This document shows, piece by piece, positions 35,668 to 40,715 of a DNA stretch of 64,000 nt. The number at the start of each line of letters is the position of its first letter. Position 1 is the stretch's first letter. This stretch comes from Pseudoalteromonas sp. DL-6 (GTDB taxonomy: Bacteria > Pseudomonadota > Gammaproteobacteria > Enterobacterales > Alteromonadaceae): positions 806,001 to 870,000 of the forward strand of contig NZ_CP019770.1 in the NCBI RefSeq assembly GCF_004328665.1, given 5' to 3'. The position numbers and the translations under genes are program-made. Under the pieces are notes generated by a model. That model saw only the letters and a list, made by a program, of their open reading frames with translations. It did no database searches and was not told the DNA's origin.

Positions 35668-35719
35668 CTTTTTATGCCCCTTGGAATTAAGGGGCTATTA
35701 TCGGGTTTGGAGAGATTTC

Positions 35720-37585
35720 ATGGCATTATGGGGCGGACGTTTTTCTACGGGTCCAGATGAAGCGTTTAAACAGTTTAACGATTCACTTCCCTTCGATTAT
35801 CAATTAGCAGAGCAAGATATCATTGGCTCTGTTGCATGGGCTGGTGCACTTGAACAAGTGAATGTGTTATCTAACGACGAGCACAAAAAACTGGTATCGG
35901 CACTTTATGAGTTACTTGAAGAAGTAAAAGCAGATCCACATGCGGTTGCCACCTCAGGTGCTGAGGATATTCATTCTCATGTTGAAGCTGCGCTAATTGA
36001 AAAAGTGGGTGATTTAGCTAAAAAATTACACACAGGTCGAAGCCGTAACGATCAAGTTGCTACCGACTTTAGGTTATGGTGCCGCGATACTGCTGATCAT
36101 ATTTTAAAAGCAATTGCACAATTAAAAGCTGAATTTATTAGTTTGGCTGAACGTGAGCTTGGCACAATACTGCCAGGTTATACGCACTTACAGCGTGCAC
36201 AGCCCGTACTGTTTAGTCATTGGTGTATGGCTTATGTAGAAATGCTTGAGCGTGATGAAAGCCGATTACAAGATGCCCAAGCAAGAATGAACTACTGCCC
36301 ACTTGGCAGTGGTGCACTTGCTGGCACTGCATACCCAATTGATCGTCATGCACTTGCACAAGGGTTAGGCTTTACCGGTGCGACTAAAAATAGTTTAGAT
36401 GGCGTGTCTGATCGTGACTTTGTGGTTGAGCTATTAAGCTGTGCGTCTATTTCTATGATCCATTTATCGCGGATGTCTGAGGACCTGATTTTTTATAACT
36501 CGGGAGAAGCTGGCTTTATTGAACTAGCGGATAATGTGACCTCGGGTTCATCTTTAATGCCACAGAAAAAAAACCCAGATGCATTAGAGCTAATTCGTGG
36601 TAAAACAGGGCGGGTGTTTGGTGCGTTTAGCGCAATGATGATGACCTTAAAAGCACTGCCACTTGCTTACAACAAAGATATGCAAGAAGACAAAGAAGGC
36701 ATTTTTGATGCCATGCCAACGTGGCTTGCGTGTATTCATATGGCACAAGCGTGTATTAAAGGCATTAAAGTTAAAGCAGATAAAACACTTGCAGCGGCAA
36801 AAGGTGGCCACGCAAATGCAACCGAACTGGCTGATTACTTAGTGGCTAAAGGTGTTCCGTTTAGAGAAGGGCACCATATTGTAGGGGTATTGGTGCAACT
36901 AGCCATTAGTGAAGATAAAACGTTAGAGCAACTTTCTCTAGAGCAGTATAAATCAGTAAACCCAGTATTTGAGGATGATGTCTATCCGGTACTTGAAATT
37001 GATGCCTGTATAAAAGCACGCCAAGCGCTTGGCGGTACATCATTAGAGCAAGTAAGCAAAGCGGTGAAAGACGCGAAAAAAAAACAGCAAATAACGGTTC
37101 GTGATGCCAATTTAGATGACGTGGAAGCGATTGCTAAACTCGTACAGCACTGGGCTACAGTCGGCGAAAACTTACCGCGTGCTAAAAGTGATATGGTGCA
37201 CTCAATTAATGAGTTTGCCGTAACTGAGATAAACGGTCAGGTATCGGGTTGTGCTTCACTTTATATTTACGACACAGGATTAGCTGAAATACGTTCATTA
37301 GGCATTGATCCTAAAAGCGCAGTAACAGGGCAGGGACGGGAACTGGTCGAGCATTTGTTGGTAAAAGCCAAAAAATTGGCACTCAATCGTGTCATCGTTC
37401 TGACTCGTGTTCCTGACTTTTTCGAAAATCAGCGGTTTAGTTTCTGTAGTAAAGAGAGCCTACCTGAAAAAGTGATGAAAGATTGTGAGTTATGTTTACG
37501 TAAAGAAAACTGTGATGAAGTCGCAATGGAATATATGTTAAAGCCAAGTAATAGCATGGAGATCCCCTGTAAAAACGTGGCTTAA
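35720..37585 (+). CDS. argH: Argininosuccinate lyase fused to N-acetylglutamate synthase-type GNAT domain, ArgH(A)
   Basis: 621 aa from ATG 35720 ([11 protein letters not shown]) with TTGGAGAG at 35706-35713; the longer TTG frame is not needed. Residues 1-455 are argininosuccinate lyase with [13 protein letters not shown] near 105 and the fumarase-family signature [12 protein letters not shown] near 278. From about residue 460 a GNAT acetyltransferase follows ([16 protein letters not shown], then acetyl-CoA loop [12 protein letters not shown] near 545). This ArgH(A) fusion, known from Moritella, Vibrio and relatives, provides N-acetylglutamate for the linear pathway, and the same operon carries argCBFG. 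Confidence 0.95.
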
Positions 37586-37680: not shown

Positions 37681-37697
37681 TTGGCATATCGTTTGCT
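37681..37697 (+). promoter_or_regulatory. Putative sigma-54 (RpoN) promoter
   Basis: TTGGCATATCGTTTGCT matches the -24/-12 consensus TTGGCACG-N4-TTGCW: GG and GC are separated by exactly 10 bases. It is followed 139 bases later by the 66-aa gene, leaving an untranslated leader of roughly 125 bases. No other convincing promoter is seen in the gap after the argH(A) terminator. Confidence 0.68.
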
Positions 37698-37754
37698 TTT
37701 ATTATTCTGTAACGTGTTGTTGAGTCAATTAATCAACGTAGGCAATACGTTACT

Positions 37755-37773
37755 GCAGTTATTTAGTAACTGC
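37755..37773 (+). other. Leader hairpin downstream of the sigma-54 site
   Basis: GCAGTTA (37755-37761) pairs perfectly with TAACTGC (37767-37773) across loop TTTAG. It lies in the leader of the 66-aa gene, with no T-run, so it is not a terminator. It could be an mRNA structure or an activator half-site pair. Confidence 0.5.
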
Positions 37774-37835
37774 TTCAGATGGTGTGATTTAAATTTGCGC
37801 CAATAATAAATTTAACACTCAAAAGGATTAATCAC

Positions 37836-38036
37836 ATGCAAATTTCAGCGAACAGCCAAGTTCAAATGCAAGCATACAATAAAACGCAACAATTAAAGCC
37901 TGCAATGGAACAAACTGCTAGCCCTAAAACCCTACAATCTGATACAGTAAGCTTTTCTAAAGAGGCGATGACGGCTGCTACTGCGGATTTACAGCGAGGT
38001 GGTGGTACTGTTATACCAACATGGAAACCTAAATAA
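37836..38036 (+). CDS. 66-aa small protein heading a membrane-protein operon
   Basis: 66 aa, hydrophilic, rich in Gln, Thr and Ser, with no signal peptide or membrane segment. It has a good ribosome binding site (AAAAGGA, about 37820-37826). It contains SDTVSFSKEAMTAAT (about 35-49), and ends in GGGTVIPTWKPK, a triple glycine before a short nine-residue tail. I do not recognise the family; the DTVSFSKEA segment recalls short DxVxxS-A motifs in small exported or flagellum-associated proteins of this group, but that is weak. It sits 15 bases before the first of four paralogous membrane proteins and is probably co-transcribed with them. A precursor-peptide role for the tail is speculation. Confidence 0.75.
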   Translation: MQISANSQVQMQAYNKTQQLKPAMEQTASPKTLQSDTVSFSKEAMTAATADLQRGGGTVIPTWKPK

Positions 38037-38051
38037 TTATAAAGGTTTTAA

Positions 38052-38588
38052 ATGATTCTAACTGAGCTTTTTGGGTTGTTCTCACTGTCTGCTTTTACGA
38101 TGTGGGGATTTCTAATGACTTTCTTTTTTAATGTATTTGTATATTCATTAGATGTAAAAAGGGGAACAACTCTCTTACTCAGTTCATTTATCATGATGGC
38201 ATCTTATACCCTTTCTGATTATTTTTATACGTGGCTATCGATGAAAGATTCAATTTATCTTGATTGGGCCATGTATGATATTGTCACGATCATCGCCCTT
38301 GCATGTATCTATAAAATTATAAAGAAAACAACCCCATCTTTTATATATTTAATTATTGGTCTATCAATAAATTCAATCCTTTTTCTTTGCATGTATTTAG
38401 ATATCTATATATTAAAAAACAAAGAACCATGGTTTTTGTGGGATGCTTATACATATACAGTTAATCTTGTAGACTTCATTATGATAGTTGTATTAATTGT
38501 TGATAGAGATTTCTTAGGATTACATAAGTTTAAAAATAAAATACTATCGTCATTTCAAAGACCAAAAATAGCAAGGGATTGTAACTAA
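38052..38588 (+). CDS. Tandem membrane paralogue 1 of 4
   Basis: 178 aa, about five hydrophobic segments (near 12-32, 42-60, 72-88, 95-112, 132-150), short basic C-terminus. AAAGG at 38041-38045 precedes the ATG. Shared with the three following genes: a W-x-FLM opening near 18-22, F/YD-x-x-T in the third segment, GL-x-(I/V)N in the fourth, an aspartate soon after it, W-x-x-W/Y, and an aspartate in the last segment followed by DFLGL-like and basic residues. It is the most divergent of the four. Function unknown; DNA is visibly more AT-rich than argH(A) and coaD beside it. Confidence 0.82.
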   Translation: MILTELFGLFSLSAFTMWGFLMTFFFNVFVYSLDVKRGTTLLLSSFIMMASYTLSDYFYTWLSMKDSIYLDWAMYDIVTIIALACIYKIIKKTTPSFIYLIIGLSINSILFLCMYLDIYILKNKEPWFLWDAYTYTVNLVDFIMIVVLIVDRDFLGLHKFKNKILSSFQRPKIARDCN

Positions 38589-38589
38589 G

Positions 38590-39096
38590 TTGTATATCGA
38601 TTACAGCATGGTTGATTACGTAAGTGCCTTCACTCAATGGGATTTTTTAATGGCGTTTTTATACTCACTTGTTTCGAGTATAAATAAGGCAGACAAGTCG
38701 TTAACATACTTAGCCGCTATTATGTTTTTCTCTTACTTTTGTAGTGATTTTTTTCCGATATTAGAAAATGTATATTTAGATTGGATCCTCTTCGATTATA
38801 TAACCATTTCTATTATTCTCATTTTATTGAATTTCTGCCTTAAAGCTCCCCTCGCTAGCTATTATATTATCTCAGGCCTACTAATAAATAGTCTGCTAAC
38901 ATTTTTCATTTATTATGACCTATTTGTACGTGATAATATTGATGAATGGTGGCTTTGGAGTGTTTACTCTTTAGGAGTAAACTTTATTGATGTATTAATG
39001 ATTATTTCTTTGGTAATAAATACAAGTATCTTAAAAAAACGACAGGTAAAAAAGCAACTTAATTTAGCTATTCGAAATAATGCTTCAAATGGATAA
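38590..39096 (+). CDS. Tandem membrane paralogue 2 of 4
   Basis: 168 aa if started at TTG 38590, or 162 aa from ATG 38608 (MVDYVSAF); the start is uncertain. Five hydrophobic segments. Family marks: FTQWDFLMAFLYSLVSSINK near 14-33, LFDYITISI near 67, SGLLINSLL near 94, YYDLFV near 107, WWLWSVYSLGVNFIDVLM near 118-135. Unlike 1, 3 and 4 its C-terminus lacks the DFLGL segment and is strongly basic. It starts one base after paralogue 1 ends and overlaps paralogue 3 by 17 bases. Confidence 0.82.
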   Translation: MYIDYSMVDYVSAFTQWDFLMAFLYSLVSSINKADKSLTYLAAIMFFSYFCSDFFPILENVYLDWILFDYITISIILILLNFCLKAPLASYYIISGLLINSLLTFFIYYDLFVRDNIDEWWLWSVYSLGVNFIDVLMIISLVINTSILKKRQVKKQLNLAIRNNASNG

Positions 39097-39598
39097 TTTT
39101 TTGCTCAACCCATATGTATCTCTTTACCTAGGCGCATTTGTTCAATGGGGTTTTTTAATGGCTTTTTTATACTCATTAGTAACGAGTATAAATAAACCCA
39201 AAAAAGAGGCCTTATGGCTGTCGCTAATTATGTCAGTTTCATATTCTTCAAGCTTGTTTATTGATATTCAAAATATTTCTTACATGCAACTATTACTTTT
39301 TGATCTAATGACTATTTTGGCTATTTTGATTGCAAGTAACTTCTTAAATAAAAACATCATATCTTCTTATCTATTATTAGGGCTAAGCATAAACTCACTG
39401 TTATTTTTTGGCATGCATCTAGATGTACTTGTTTTTAGTAACAGCTCACCATGGTGGTTCTGGTCATTTTATTCTTTGGGAATTAATCTTATGGATTTTA
39501 TGATGATAGCCATTTTATTTATCAATAAAGACTTTTTAGGGCTAATGAAACTTAAAGGTCGTTTATTTAGATCACGCACTGAGTTTAAAAGCCTATAA
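39080..39598 (+). CDS. Tandem membrane paralogue 3 of 4
   Basis: 172 aa (or 169 from the second ATG at 39089). FVQWGFLMAFLYSLVTSINK near 20-39 is nearly the same as in paralogue 2, which points to a recent duplication. LFDLMTILAI, LGLSINSLLFFGMHLDVLV and WWFWSFYSLGINLMDFMM follow, then INKDFLGLMKLKGRL. It begins inside paralogue 2 and its TAA overlaps the ATG of paralogue 4 (TAATG), so translation is probably coupled. Confidence 0.84.
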   Translation: MLQMDNFLLNPYVSLYLGAFVQWGFLMAFLYSLVTSINKPKKEALWLSLIMSVSYSSSLFIDIQNISYMQLLLFDLMTILAILIASNFLNKNIISSYLLLGLSINSLLFFGMHLDVLVFSNSSPWWFWSFYSLGINLMDFMMIAILFINKDFLGLMKLKGRLFRSRTEFKSL

Positions 39599-40119
39599 TG
39601 ACTGATCTATTATGGCTGCTTGTTAAAGTTGGCGAGAATTTAGGTAATTTTATATTGTGGTTATTTTTAATCGCTTTTCTATTTAACCTTTCTTCGAGCA
39701 TTAATAAACAAGATAAAAGTTTACTGCATATTTCATTAATAATGATGATCTCTTATTTTCTAAGTGCATTTTTAAGCCTCGAAACTTCTACGTATAAAGA
39801 TTATTTCATATTTGATCTCACAACTATTTTGATACTTTTTTTGTGGCGAAAAATAACGTTGCAAAACACGCCTATTGCTTTTTATTACTTAATTCTGGGG
39901 TTGGGAGTTAATACCTGTTTATTTTTGGGGATGCATTATGATGTTCAAGTTAAAGGGAACATTGATTACTGGTGGTTTTGGGCTGTATACGGGTTTGGCG
40001 TTATTCTCTTTGATTTTATAATGGCCTTGGCACTATTTATCAATAAAGATTTTTTGGGCTTAGTGAGGCTTAAGAACGTTCTGTTTCTAGCAAGAGCGAA
40101 GCTACCTAGCGCAATGTAA
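39598..40119 (+). CDS. Tandem membrane paralogue 4 of 4
   Basis: 173 aa, five hydrophobic segments. LWLFLIAFLFNLSSSINKQ near 20-38, IFDLTTILIL near 71, LGLGVNTCLFLGMHYDVQV near 99-117, WWFWAVYGFGVILFDFIM near 123-140 and INKDFLGLVRLKNVLF align position for position with paralogue 3. The three conserved aspartates and the GL-x-x-N asparagine are kept in all four. Last gene of the run. An inverted repeat spans its stop codon. Confidence 0.84.
   Translation: MTDLLWLLVKVGENLGNFILWLFLIAFLFNLSSSINKQDKSLLHISLIMMISYFLSAFLSLETSTYKDYFIFDLTTILILFLWRKITLQNTPIAFYYLILGLGVNTCLFLGMHYDVQVKGNIDYWWFWAVYGFGVILFDFIMALALFINKDFLGLVRLKNVLFLARAKLPSAM

Positions 40120-40139: not shown

Positions 40140-40715
<576 letters not shown>

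Follow-up and report, generated by a model that had tools for sequence, protein, structure and literature searches.

What is encoded by the compact set of genes lying between argH(A) and coaD in Pseudoalteromonas sp. DL-6? The locus was examined within a stretch of 64,000 nucleotides (NZ_CP019770.1, positions 806,001 to 870,000; this whole stretch is referred to as the window), where a 66-amino-acid protein is followed by four paralogous membrane proteins, termed here PAR1 to PAR4. Judged by its sequence and that of its homologues, the most fitting reading of the 66-amino-acid protein is that of a peptide precursor, composed of a conserved leader and a hypervariable tail. Tail and PAR1 co-segregate, and the probable explanation is that a polymorphic peptide is exported and has its cognate partner in PAR1. 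The locus looks like an undescribed system for self/non-self recognition or competition. The parts of the operon, in window coordinates, are as follows.

37682..37697, forward strand: sigma-54-type −24/−12 promoter TGGCATATCGTTTGCT, an exact match to TGGCAYRN4TTGCW
37836-38036, forward strand: peptide open reading frame (ORF), 66 amino acids, first gene of the operon
37836..37967, forward strand: putative peptide-precursor leader, 44 codons, recognized by within-clade conservation and a constrained reading frame
37968..38033, forward strand: hypervariable tail, putative core peptide, MTAATADLQRGGGTVIPTWKPK, recognized by within-clade variability and by relatives with tandem tails
38052..38588, forward strand: PAR1, a 178-amino-acid protein with five transmembrane segments, putative cognate partner of the tail by co-segregation and by its place in the first-position clade
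38590..39096, forward strand: PAR2, 168-amino-acid paralogue; in the tree, downstream PARs branch apart from the PAR1s
39080..39598, forward strand: PAR3, 172-amino-acid paralogue, the subject of a structural model described below
39598..40119, forward strand: PAR4, 173-amino-acid paralogue, exchanged between the window and the closely related genome G020

PAR genes were found in 102 of 108 Pseudoalteromonas genomes. One of these, G357, carries a prophage copy only, and the main locus is therefore present in 101 of 108, with argH upstream in 101 of 101. The initial annotation had regarded the set as an accessory insertion. This was not borne out, as the locus occupies one fixed site after argH in these 101 genomes, and an accessory island was ruled out for it on the same count. 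The coordinates and packing given there for the 66-amino-acid ORF and the four five-segment genes behind a sigma-54-type site were confirmed (gaps of 15 bases between the peptide gene and PAR1 and of 1 between PAR1 and PAR2, overlaps of 17 between PAR2 and PAR3 and of 1 between PAR3 and PAR4). The G+C content was lower in the PAR genes (0.305) than in the peptide gene (0.413) or the whole window (0.397).

A small ORF of this kind stands ahead of PAR1 in 98 of the 101 main loci. The leader is of the window's type in 59 and of the double-glycine type in 35; three are double-glycine variants (L185, L198, L202) and the last is L162. For comparisons within clades, 75 of 91 regions were parsed with an alignable leader type, and 47 were kept after removal of duplicates and of loci with incomplete argG or PAR1. 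Mean amino acid identity of the leader within clades was 90-96% in these 47 loci, that of the last 13 residues was 48-59%, and argG of the same clades was 97-99% identical. The post-leader segment took 40 distinct forms among the 47 loci. Differences over the three codon positions of the leader were 0.076/0.031/0.152, and its reading frame is thus constrained. A separate peptide set was defined by the start MQ[IV][ST], dropping three pattern misfits (L056, L079, L082) and six duplicates; 33 of its members had an argH of >400 amino acids.

Among 120 listed homologues the tail often comprised R-G-G-G, a few hydrophobic residues, proline and a basic end. Tandem tails were found in L035 (three copies), L049 (two) and L183 (nine). 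The L183 product is a 174-amino-acid precursor ahead of a PAR, with nine RGGGIIKT tails in tandem. The window's tail contains no cysteine. Among main-locus peptides with an RGG-like motif, cysteine occurred in the last 25 residues only in L203, L206 and L207, and some tails from other genera contain it.

The leader signature L−7, V/I−4, G−2 and G/A/S−1 was found at 36 loci (35 of the 101 main loci and the prophage locus L218). Double-glycine leader peptides of C39-peptidase ABC transporters include class II bacteriocins and ComC-like pheromones. C39 proteases contact Val−4 and Leu−7 of such leaders, according to part of one report (PMC6363468). The C39 family, PF03412, was matched in 81 of 108 genomes of the genus; the seven genomes with double-glycine-type loci among G000-G024 (G004, G009, G013, G014, G018, G023 and G024) had one match each at an expected value (E) of <1e-34. 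Double-glycine export was tried as a route for the window's own peptide and was rejected on the motif.

Comparison of closely related loci located the boundaries of exchange. L044 and L087 have the same argH and leader (100% identity, rounded) but share 50% identity over the post-leader segment and 49% over PAR1. In 50-base bins, their identity was 88-100% through argH, the promoter and most of the leader, dropped at the tail and recovered after the array. L051 and L084 were 76-98% identical upstream, dropped at the tail, and reached 94-100% over the remainder of PAR1 beginning at its fifth helix, and L081 and L071 were 90-100% identical upstream and regained identity at PAR2. Natural tail/PAR1 types thus differ among close relatives, as in L044 and L087.

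Within clades, tail identity was correlated with that of the N-terminal part of PAR1 (r = 0.84 in clade A, 12 loci; 0.71 in B, 9 loci; 0.45 in C, 22 loci); the corresponding values for argG were 0.01, 0.09 and 0.03. Across the clade pair A x B, the tail followed the N-terminal part (0.66) and not the C-terminal part (0.16), while B x C gave 0.38 and 0.36. PAR2 served as a control in 12, 7 and 21 loci of clades A, B and C. Given PAR2, the tail-PAR1 correlations were 0.82, 0.64 and 0.66, and given PAR1, those of tail and PAR2 were negative in all three clades (uncontrolled, 0.47 in A, 0.14 in B and 0.04 in C). The 35 double-glycine-type main loci, with prophage loci left out, gave a partial tail-PAR1 correlation of 0.59 given leader (p=0.0005).

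The side of the membrane on which PAR1 positions track the tail was assigned from helices and positive-inside counts, in a face test that controlled for overall PAR1 and leader identity and that was run with the ranked positions already known. Seventeen of the top 20 tail-tracking positions lay on the periplasmic half, against 9.3 expected (p=0.0005). With narrower boundaries the result was weaker, at 12 of the top 20 where 7.7 were expected (p=0.003). The same kind of test was negative for PAR2, for leader identity and for argG identity. Two single positions, 55 and 66, exceeded the family-wise null. Position-wise entropy of PAR1 alone had no periplasmic bias, variability being greatest at the inner end of helix 3 and in the C-tail. 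These results are suggestive of tail specificity being read on the periplasmic half of PAR1.

Relatives outside the main locus were sought with two kinds of query. Among 295 genomes of the order, profile A2 matched 2, and both belong to Pseudoalteromonas. With a prophage-type query, PAR-like proteins turned up in 28 of 395 genomes of the family, eight of these from five other genera (one such match, G453, is weak and contains stops), and a genus-restricted family was thereby overturned. Divergent off-site PARs in G357 (L218), G398 (L219) and G340 (L220) each lie near a phage integrase, and the gene immediately ahead of each encodes a small peptide whose tail contains GGLVV. A phage GPA replication gene is present at L218 and L219 as well, and a CI-type repressor at L218; we take these three prophages to be P2-like from their gene content. 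The pair in G340 (L220:3782-9579), beside its phage-type integrase, has as flanking genes one of OLD-family nuclease type and another for a second, defence-type AAA ATPase. Two IMG/VR contigs carry the same modules, L222 and L235, the latter identical to L218. A scan of viral contigs with the window paralogues gave 99 pattern matches and 0 confirmed, and no phage record matched the prophage-type PAR.

In other genera, a small ORF was found directly upstream in 8 of 8 PAR-like loci examined (L224-L227, L230, L231, L239, L241), of nine found. L230 has the shared leader motif SESDTVNISQEAL. L231 has a full double-glycine leader including E−8 and V−12, followed by two tails. L239 has the tail end GGGVVANPNEKKAS and, by eye and with no predictor, a Sec-like signal sequence at its start. 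From these upstream ORFs and the prophage copies it follows that the unit is usually a peptide and a PAR, and is sometimes mobile. Peptide/PAR pairs at a chromosomal site of another genus (L236, L237) are preceded by a gene presumed, by sight, to be undecaprenyl-pyrophosphate phosphatase-like. A conserved 104-amino-acid ORF lies downstream in L224-L227.

The two components are not lost symmetrically. A PAR was kept without the peptide in 3 of 101 main loci (L043, L216, L217), probably two lineages; a peptide at this site without a PAR was found in 0 of 108 genomes. In Pseudoalteromonas sp. T1lg88 (L043 / L092) the peptide gene is decayed, the promoter has no match and two PAR genes are intact. 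L216 and L217 have no peptide and keep a PAR, and the PAR differences between them fall 11:6:34 over the codon positions. This pattern, based probably on two lineages, fits immunity or listening better than a dedicated exporter.

The downstream genes were placed with a tree of 199 distinct PARs of 150-205 amino acids from the first 91 regions. First-position PARs formed one clade (63 of 63) apart from the 136 downstream PARs, with one change between first and downstream state, against at least 45 in shuffles. The array is therefore not a store of displaced PAR1-type genes, and orphan-immunity displacement was rejected, since array members do not resemble the first-position PARs of other strains. 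An immunity-type array, one of the possibilities initially offered, is thus weakened for the downstream genes, while the accompanying idea of a peptide/receptor or immunity set is supported. For the third possibility, an ion- or metabolite-binding complex, the results speak neither for nor against. Downstream turnover is independent, affecting PAR4 between the window and G020 and PAR3 between L087 and L089. In 50-base bins, the window and G020 are mostly 88-100% identical through PAR1-3 and ~35-74% in the PAR4 segment.

The exported-peptide reading may be set out as follows. The operon would be transcribed by sigma-54 RNA polymerase, as the conserved promoter implies. A short glycine-rich cationic tail would be freed from the 66-amino-acid precursor by proteolysis, after or during export; export and cleavage are suggested because relatives have double-glycine, Sec-like and multi-tail precursors. 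The released tail would then be recognized outside the cytoplasm by the periplasmic half of PAR1, taken as the bearer of matching specificity because tail and PAR1 co-segregate. Recombination would swap the two specificities jointly, giving rise to different types among close relatives, and the other PARs would be separately diversifying paralogues. As to outcome, the peptide may act on neighbouring cells of other types while PAR1 protects its own cell, in competition or kin discrimination. Competition/immunity is put forward tentatively, short of being probable; the loss pattern and the prophage copies set it slightly ahead of signalling.

Sequence comparison establishes a conserved operon, a conserved sigma-54-type site, a precursor-like peptide, tail-PAR1 co-segregation and mobile relatives, whereas sigma-54 transcription, export, cleavage, periplasmic-face binding and the biological outcome are steps that we infer from it. 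Several results weigh against this account. The window's own peptide is without the double-glycine motif (G−2 with G/A/S−1, hydrophobic at −4 and −7), and no C39 (PF03412) match was found in the window genome. Tail and PAR1 are adjacent, and joint exchange can therefore add to their correlation. The C-terminal part of PAR1 also tracks the tail within clades (0.69, 0.38, 0.39), and over all loci, given leader, does so nearly as well as the N-terminal part (0.32 against 0.35); restriction to the N-terminal part rests mainly on A x B for this reason. The pair A x C had no tail-PAR1 correlation (−0.01). In clade A, uncontrolled tail correlations extended to PAR2 (0.47) and to the last PAR (0.57), and in double-glycine loci the leader tracked PAR1 nearly as well as the tail did (0.72 against 0.78). 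It is clade C, to which the window belongs, that supplies the periplasmic-face signal (22 loci, p=0.0005), with no signal in clade A (p=0.96, 12 loci) or B (p=0.52, 9 loci) alone and none of significance once clade C was removed (p=0.32). The off-site PAR L221 (G375) has no peptide; the gene just ahead of it is, by sight, presumably galE-like. The downstream PARs are not displaced PAR1s, unlike the members of known orphan-immunity arrays. Lastly, a genus-core locus is unusual for a bacteriocin.

A rival explanation is pherotype-like signalling, in which the tail would be a pheromone and PAR1 a membrane receptor signalling via its fifth helix and C-terminal helix to a further partner, the downstream PARs being accessory or foreign-signal receptors. 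The locus is genus-core and co-transcribed, with multi-copy tails in some members, and the 3' part of the peptide gene co-segregates with the adjoining membrane gene in an agr-like manner. Across A x B the C-terminal part of PAR1 stays with the species clade (0.16) while the N-terminal part follows the tail (0.66), and a PAR kept without peptide could be eavesdropping. Family scans, however, matched no kinase, response regulator or effector domain in the PARs, and none of these was seen beside the main locus in labelled regions, where neighbours were partly identified; some prophage copies also lie near integrases and defence-type genes. Signalling is considered less likely than not, slightly behind immunity.

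Two further explanations give PAR1 or the peptide another task. PAR1 could be a dedicated AgrB-like exporter or processor of its peptide, with specificity amounting to substrate recognition and membrane aspartates that could be catalytic. Near-invariant polar residues (D75, N105, D115, D139) do lie in or at the edges of helices, the window genome has no C39 match, and co-segregation would be expected here as well. Persistence of PAR in the peptide-less L043, L216 and L217 speaks against such a role, as do the double-glycine or Sec-like export signals of relatives, the mostly periplasmic-half location of tail-tracking positions and the lack of a PDB match by Foldseek at E<=0.001; we regard it as improbable. 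Still less probable, the small protein would be an intracellular or membrane-bound regulatory subunit of a PAR complex, tail and PAR1 co-varying as interacting subunits. The tight operon, the absence of a recognizable export signal from the window's own version and the failure to identify an exporter for it (no C39 match in the genome) are compatible with a subunit. Tandem tails, double-glycine and Sec-like versions and the periplasmic-half enrichment are not readily explained by one.

The exported peptide with a cognate PAR1 was compared with known systems. Sublancin of SPbeta is a phage-borne peptide accompanied by membrane immunity. The likeness is one of gene arrangement, with a peptide and a membrane protein together near a prophage integrase; the Pseudoalteromonas main locus differs in being genus-core. 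C39 substrates are resembled in the leader signature of 36 loci, to which L231 adds E−8 and V−12; the differences are that the window's peptide has no such motif, its genome no C39 match and its operon no exporter, and that the tails are very short and glycine-rich. In agr, a hypervariable region spans 3' agrB, agrD and 5' agrC, according to the relevant section of one paper (PMC3673130). On that description, the hypervariable block here likewise extends over the mature section of the peptide and the neighbouring section of a membrane protein. Unlike agr, the operon has no histidine kinase/response regulator, the window's tail no cysteine for a thiolactone, and the conserved PAR positions no cysteine or histidine, while the hosts are Gram-negative, the promoter is of the sigma-54 type and there are extra tandem membrane paralogues. 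For the type VI secretion system of Vibrio cholerae, array immunity genes are described, in an excerpt, as highly similar to those in other strains' pairs (PMC5361080). As far as that excerpt goes, both systems place a swappable specificity pair at a fixed site ahead of a variable tandem array with some decayed copies, and differ in that the downstream PARs here group apart from all strains' PAR1s.

If an exported peptide with PAR1 as its partner is right, most Pseudoalteromonas strains would bear a strain-type label under sigma-54-type control, in which a tiny peptide is paired with a membrane protein that matches it; relatives of this label are carried by temperate phages. Competition and cooperation between strains of a marine genus would then have a basis open to testing, and two unnamed protein families, predicted to be partners, would be added to those known. 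A wider, undescribed class of two-gene modules in Alteromonadaceae and Pseudoalteromonas prophages is possible and somewhat doubtful. Each module would combine an exported short peptide of the GGG type with an inner-membrane protein of five helices that reads it from the periplasmic side, and together they would comprise many mutually specific types. If true, such modules would be the Gram-negative equivalent of pherotype or bacteriocin-immunity loci, working without a kinase or in-operon exporter, and extra paralogues would widen recognition.

The PAR proteins were characterized over 67 sequences from the first 25 genomes (PAR3 numbering). D75, D115 and D139 were each present in 66 of 67, N105 and W125 in 67 of 67 and W128 in 66 of 67. 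The three aspartates, the asparagine and the W-x-x-W/Y patch noticed in the window are thus conserved among relatives, and the accompanying view that its PARs are functional and not decayed holds with them. PAR1, PAR2 and PAR4 are 37-45% identical to PAR3, and the window genome has no PAR matches other than the four of the operon. AlphaFold models of PAR3 (predicted local distance difference test score, pLDDT, 88; predicted template modelling score, pTM, 0.82) and PAR1 (pLDDT 80, pTM 0.73) have five transmembrane helices and an additional C-terminal helix. By lysine/arginine density over 35 PAR1s, the C-tail faces inwards together with loops 1 and 3, while loops 2 and 4 lie outside, as does the N-terminus.

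Pfam and NCBIfam scans gave no family at the curated cut-off for the operon proteins, the best row overall being an SMR efflux model that scored 17 bits (E 0.0065), where the cut-off is 205. PADLOC and PHROGs gave weak rows only (best E 7.3 and 0.018, respectively). The paralogues therefore remain outside known families in these four collections, as first proposed. In the Foldseek check suggested for predicted structures, PAR models had no match in PDB or viral structures at E<=0.001, the best viral row being an uncharacterized phage protein (A0A6J5NI52, E 0.025, TM 0.62). A fold of the microbial rhodopsin kind, or of another solved protein with 5-7 transmembrane segments, may still be shared, since a weak or absent structural match does not exclude it. 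A sequence search against solved structures gave 0 matches at E<=1. An Rfam scan of the operon region gave no family at gathering score (best E 1.1), and a known RNA there was rejected. No publication on the argH-coaD peptide/PAR locus was found among open-licence full texts. Part of a study of deep-sea-fish isolates reports clusters like those for ribosomally synthesized and post-translationally modified peptides in Pseudoalteromonas, some DUF692-type and others given without detail (PMC10456417).

The flanks of the operon in the window are the following.

35681..37585, forward strand: argH(A), upstream flank, as longest ORF; the gene probably begins further inside this frame
40140..40685, reverse strand: coaD, downstream flank, as longest ORF; Met start near 40631

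Downstream, coaD was found in 23 of 25 loci checked; of the remaining two, one ended at a contig edge and one had other genes. The synteny check that had been proposed for argH-coaD did reveal copy-number variation, with 1-9 PARs per genome (ORFs >=140 amino acids): 38 genomes had one, 21 two, 24 three, 6 four, 2 five, 4 six, 1 seven, 3 eight and 2 nine. A shorter PAR fragment was additionally present in 11 loci. The seven genomes without the main locus have an empty site consisting of argH, ~45-54 bp, a minus-strand 454-amino-acid gene and coaD (for L173, in the part of the region covered). The minus-strand gene at that place in L037 (7835-9232) is a Wzi-type capsule assembly gene (PF14052, E 3e-36); the 454-amino-acid genes of the empty sites resemble it, the family scan having been made on the L037 copy alone. 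A Wzi-like minus-strand ORF lies between the PAR array and coaD in many genomes; the window has none.

The promoter was assessed by pattern scans. Within the 64-kb window, −24/−12 matches with <=1 mismatch numbered 3, against 4.4 expected, which is weak evidence by itself. Between argH and PAR1, 84 of 101 genomes had the strict pattern, where base shuffles led to an expectation of 2.2, and 98 of 101 had the strict or relaxed pattern, with 5.8 expected from shuffles. This conservation across syntenic loci upholds the sigma-54-type operon of the initial annotation. Strict matches in the peptide-less L216 and L217 are probably chance matches. Sigma-54 activator domains were matched 16 times in the window genome, 11 of them strongly. 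Slightly upstream of the −24 box, several loci (L044, L071, L081 and L051 among them) have a GATC-N5/6-GATC palindrome, for example TGATCAAAAAGATCA, and other loci have TGTCAAAAAA in its place. The palindrome could be a regulator site.

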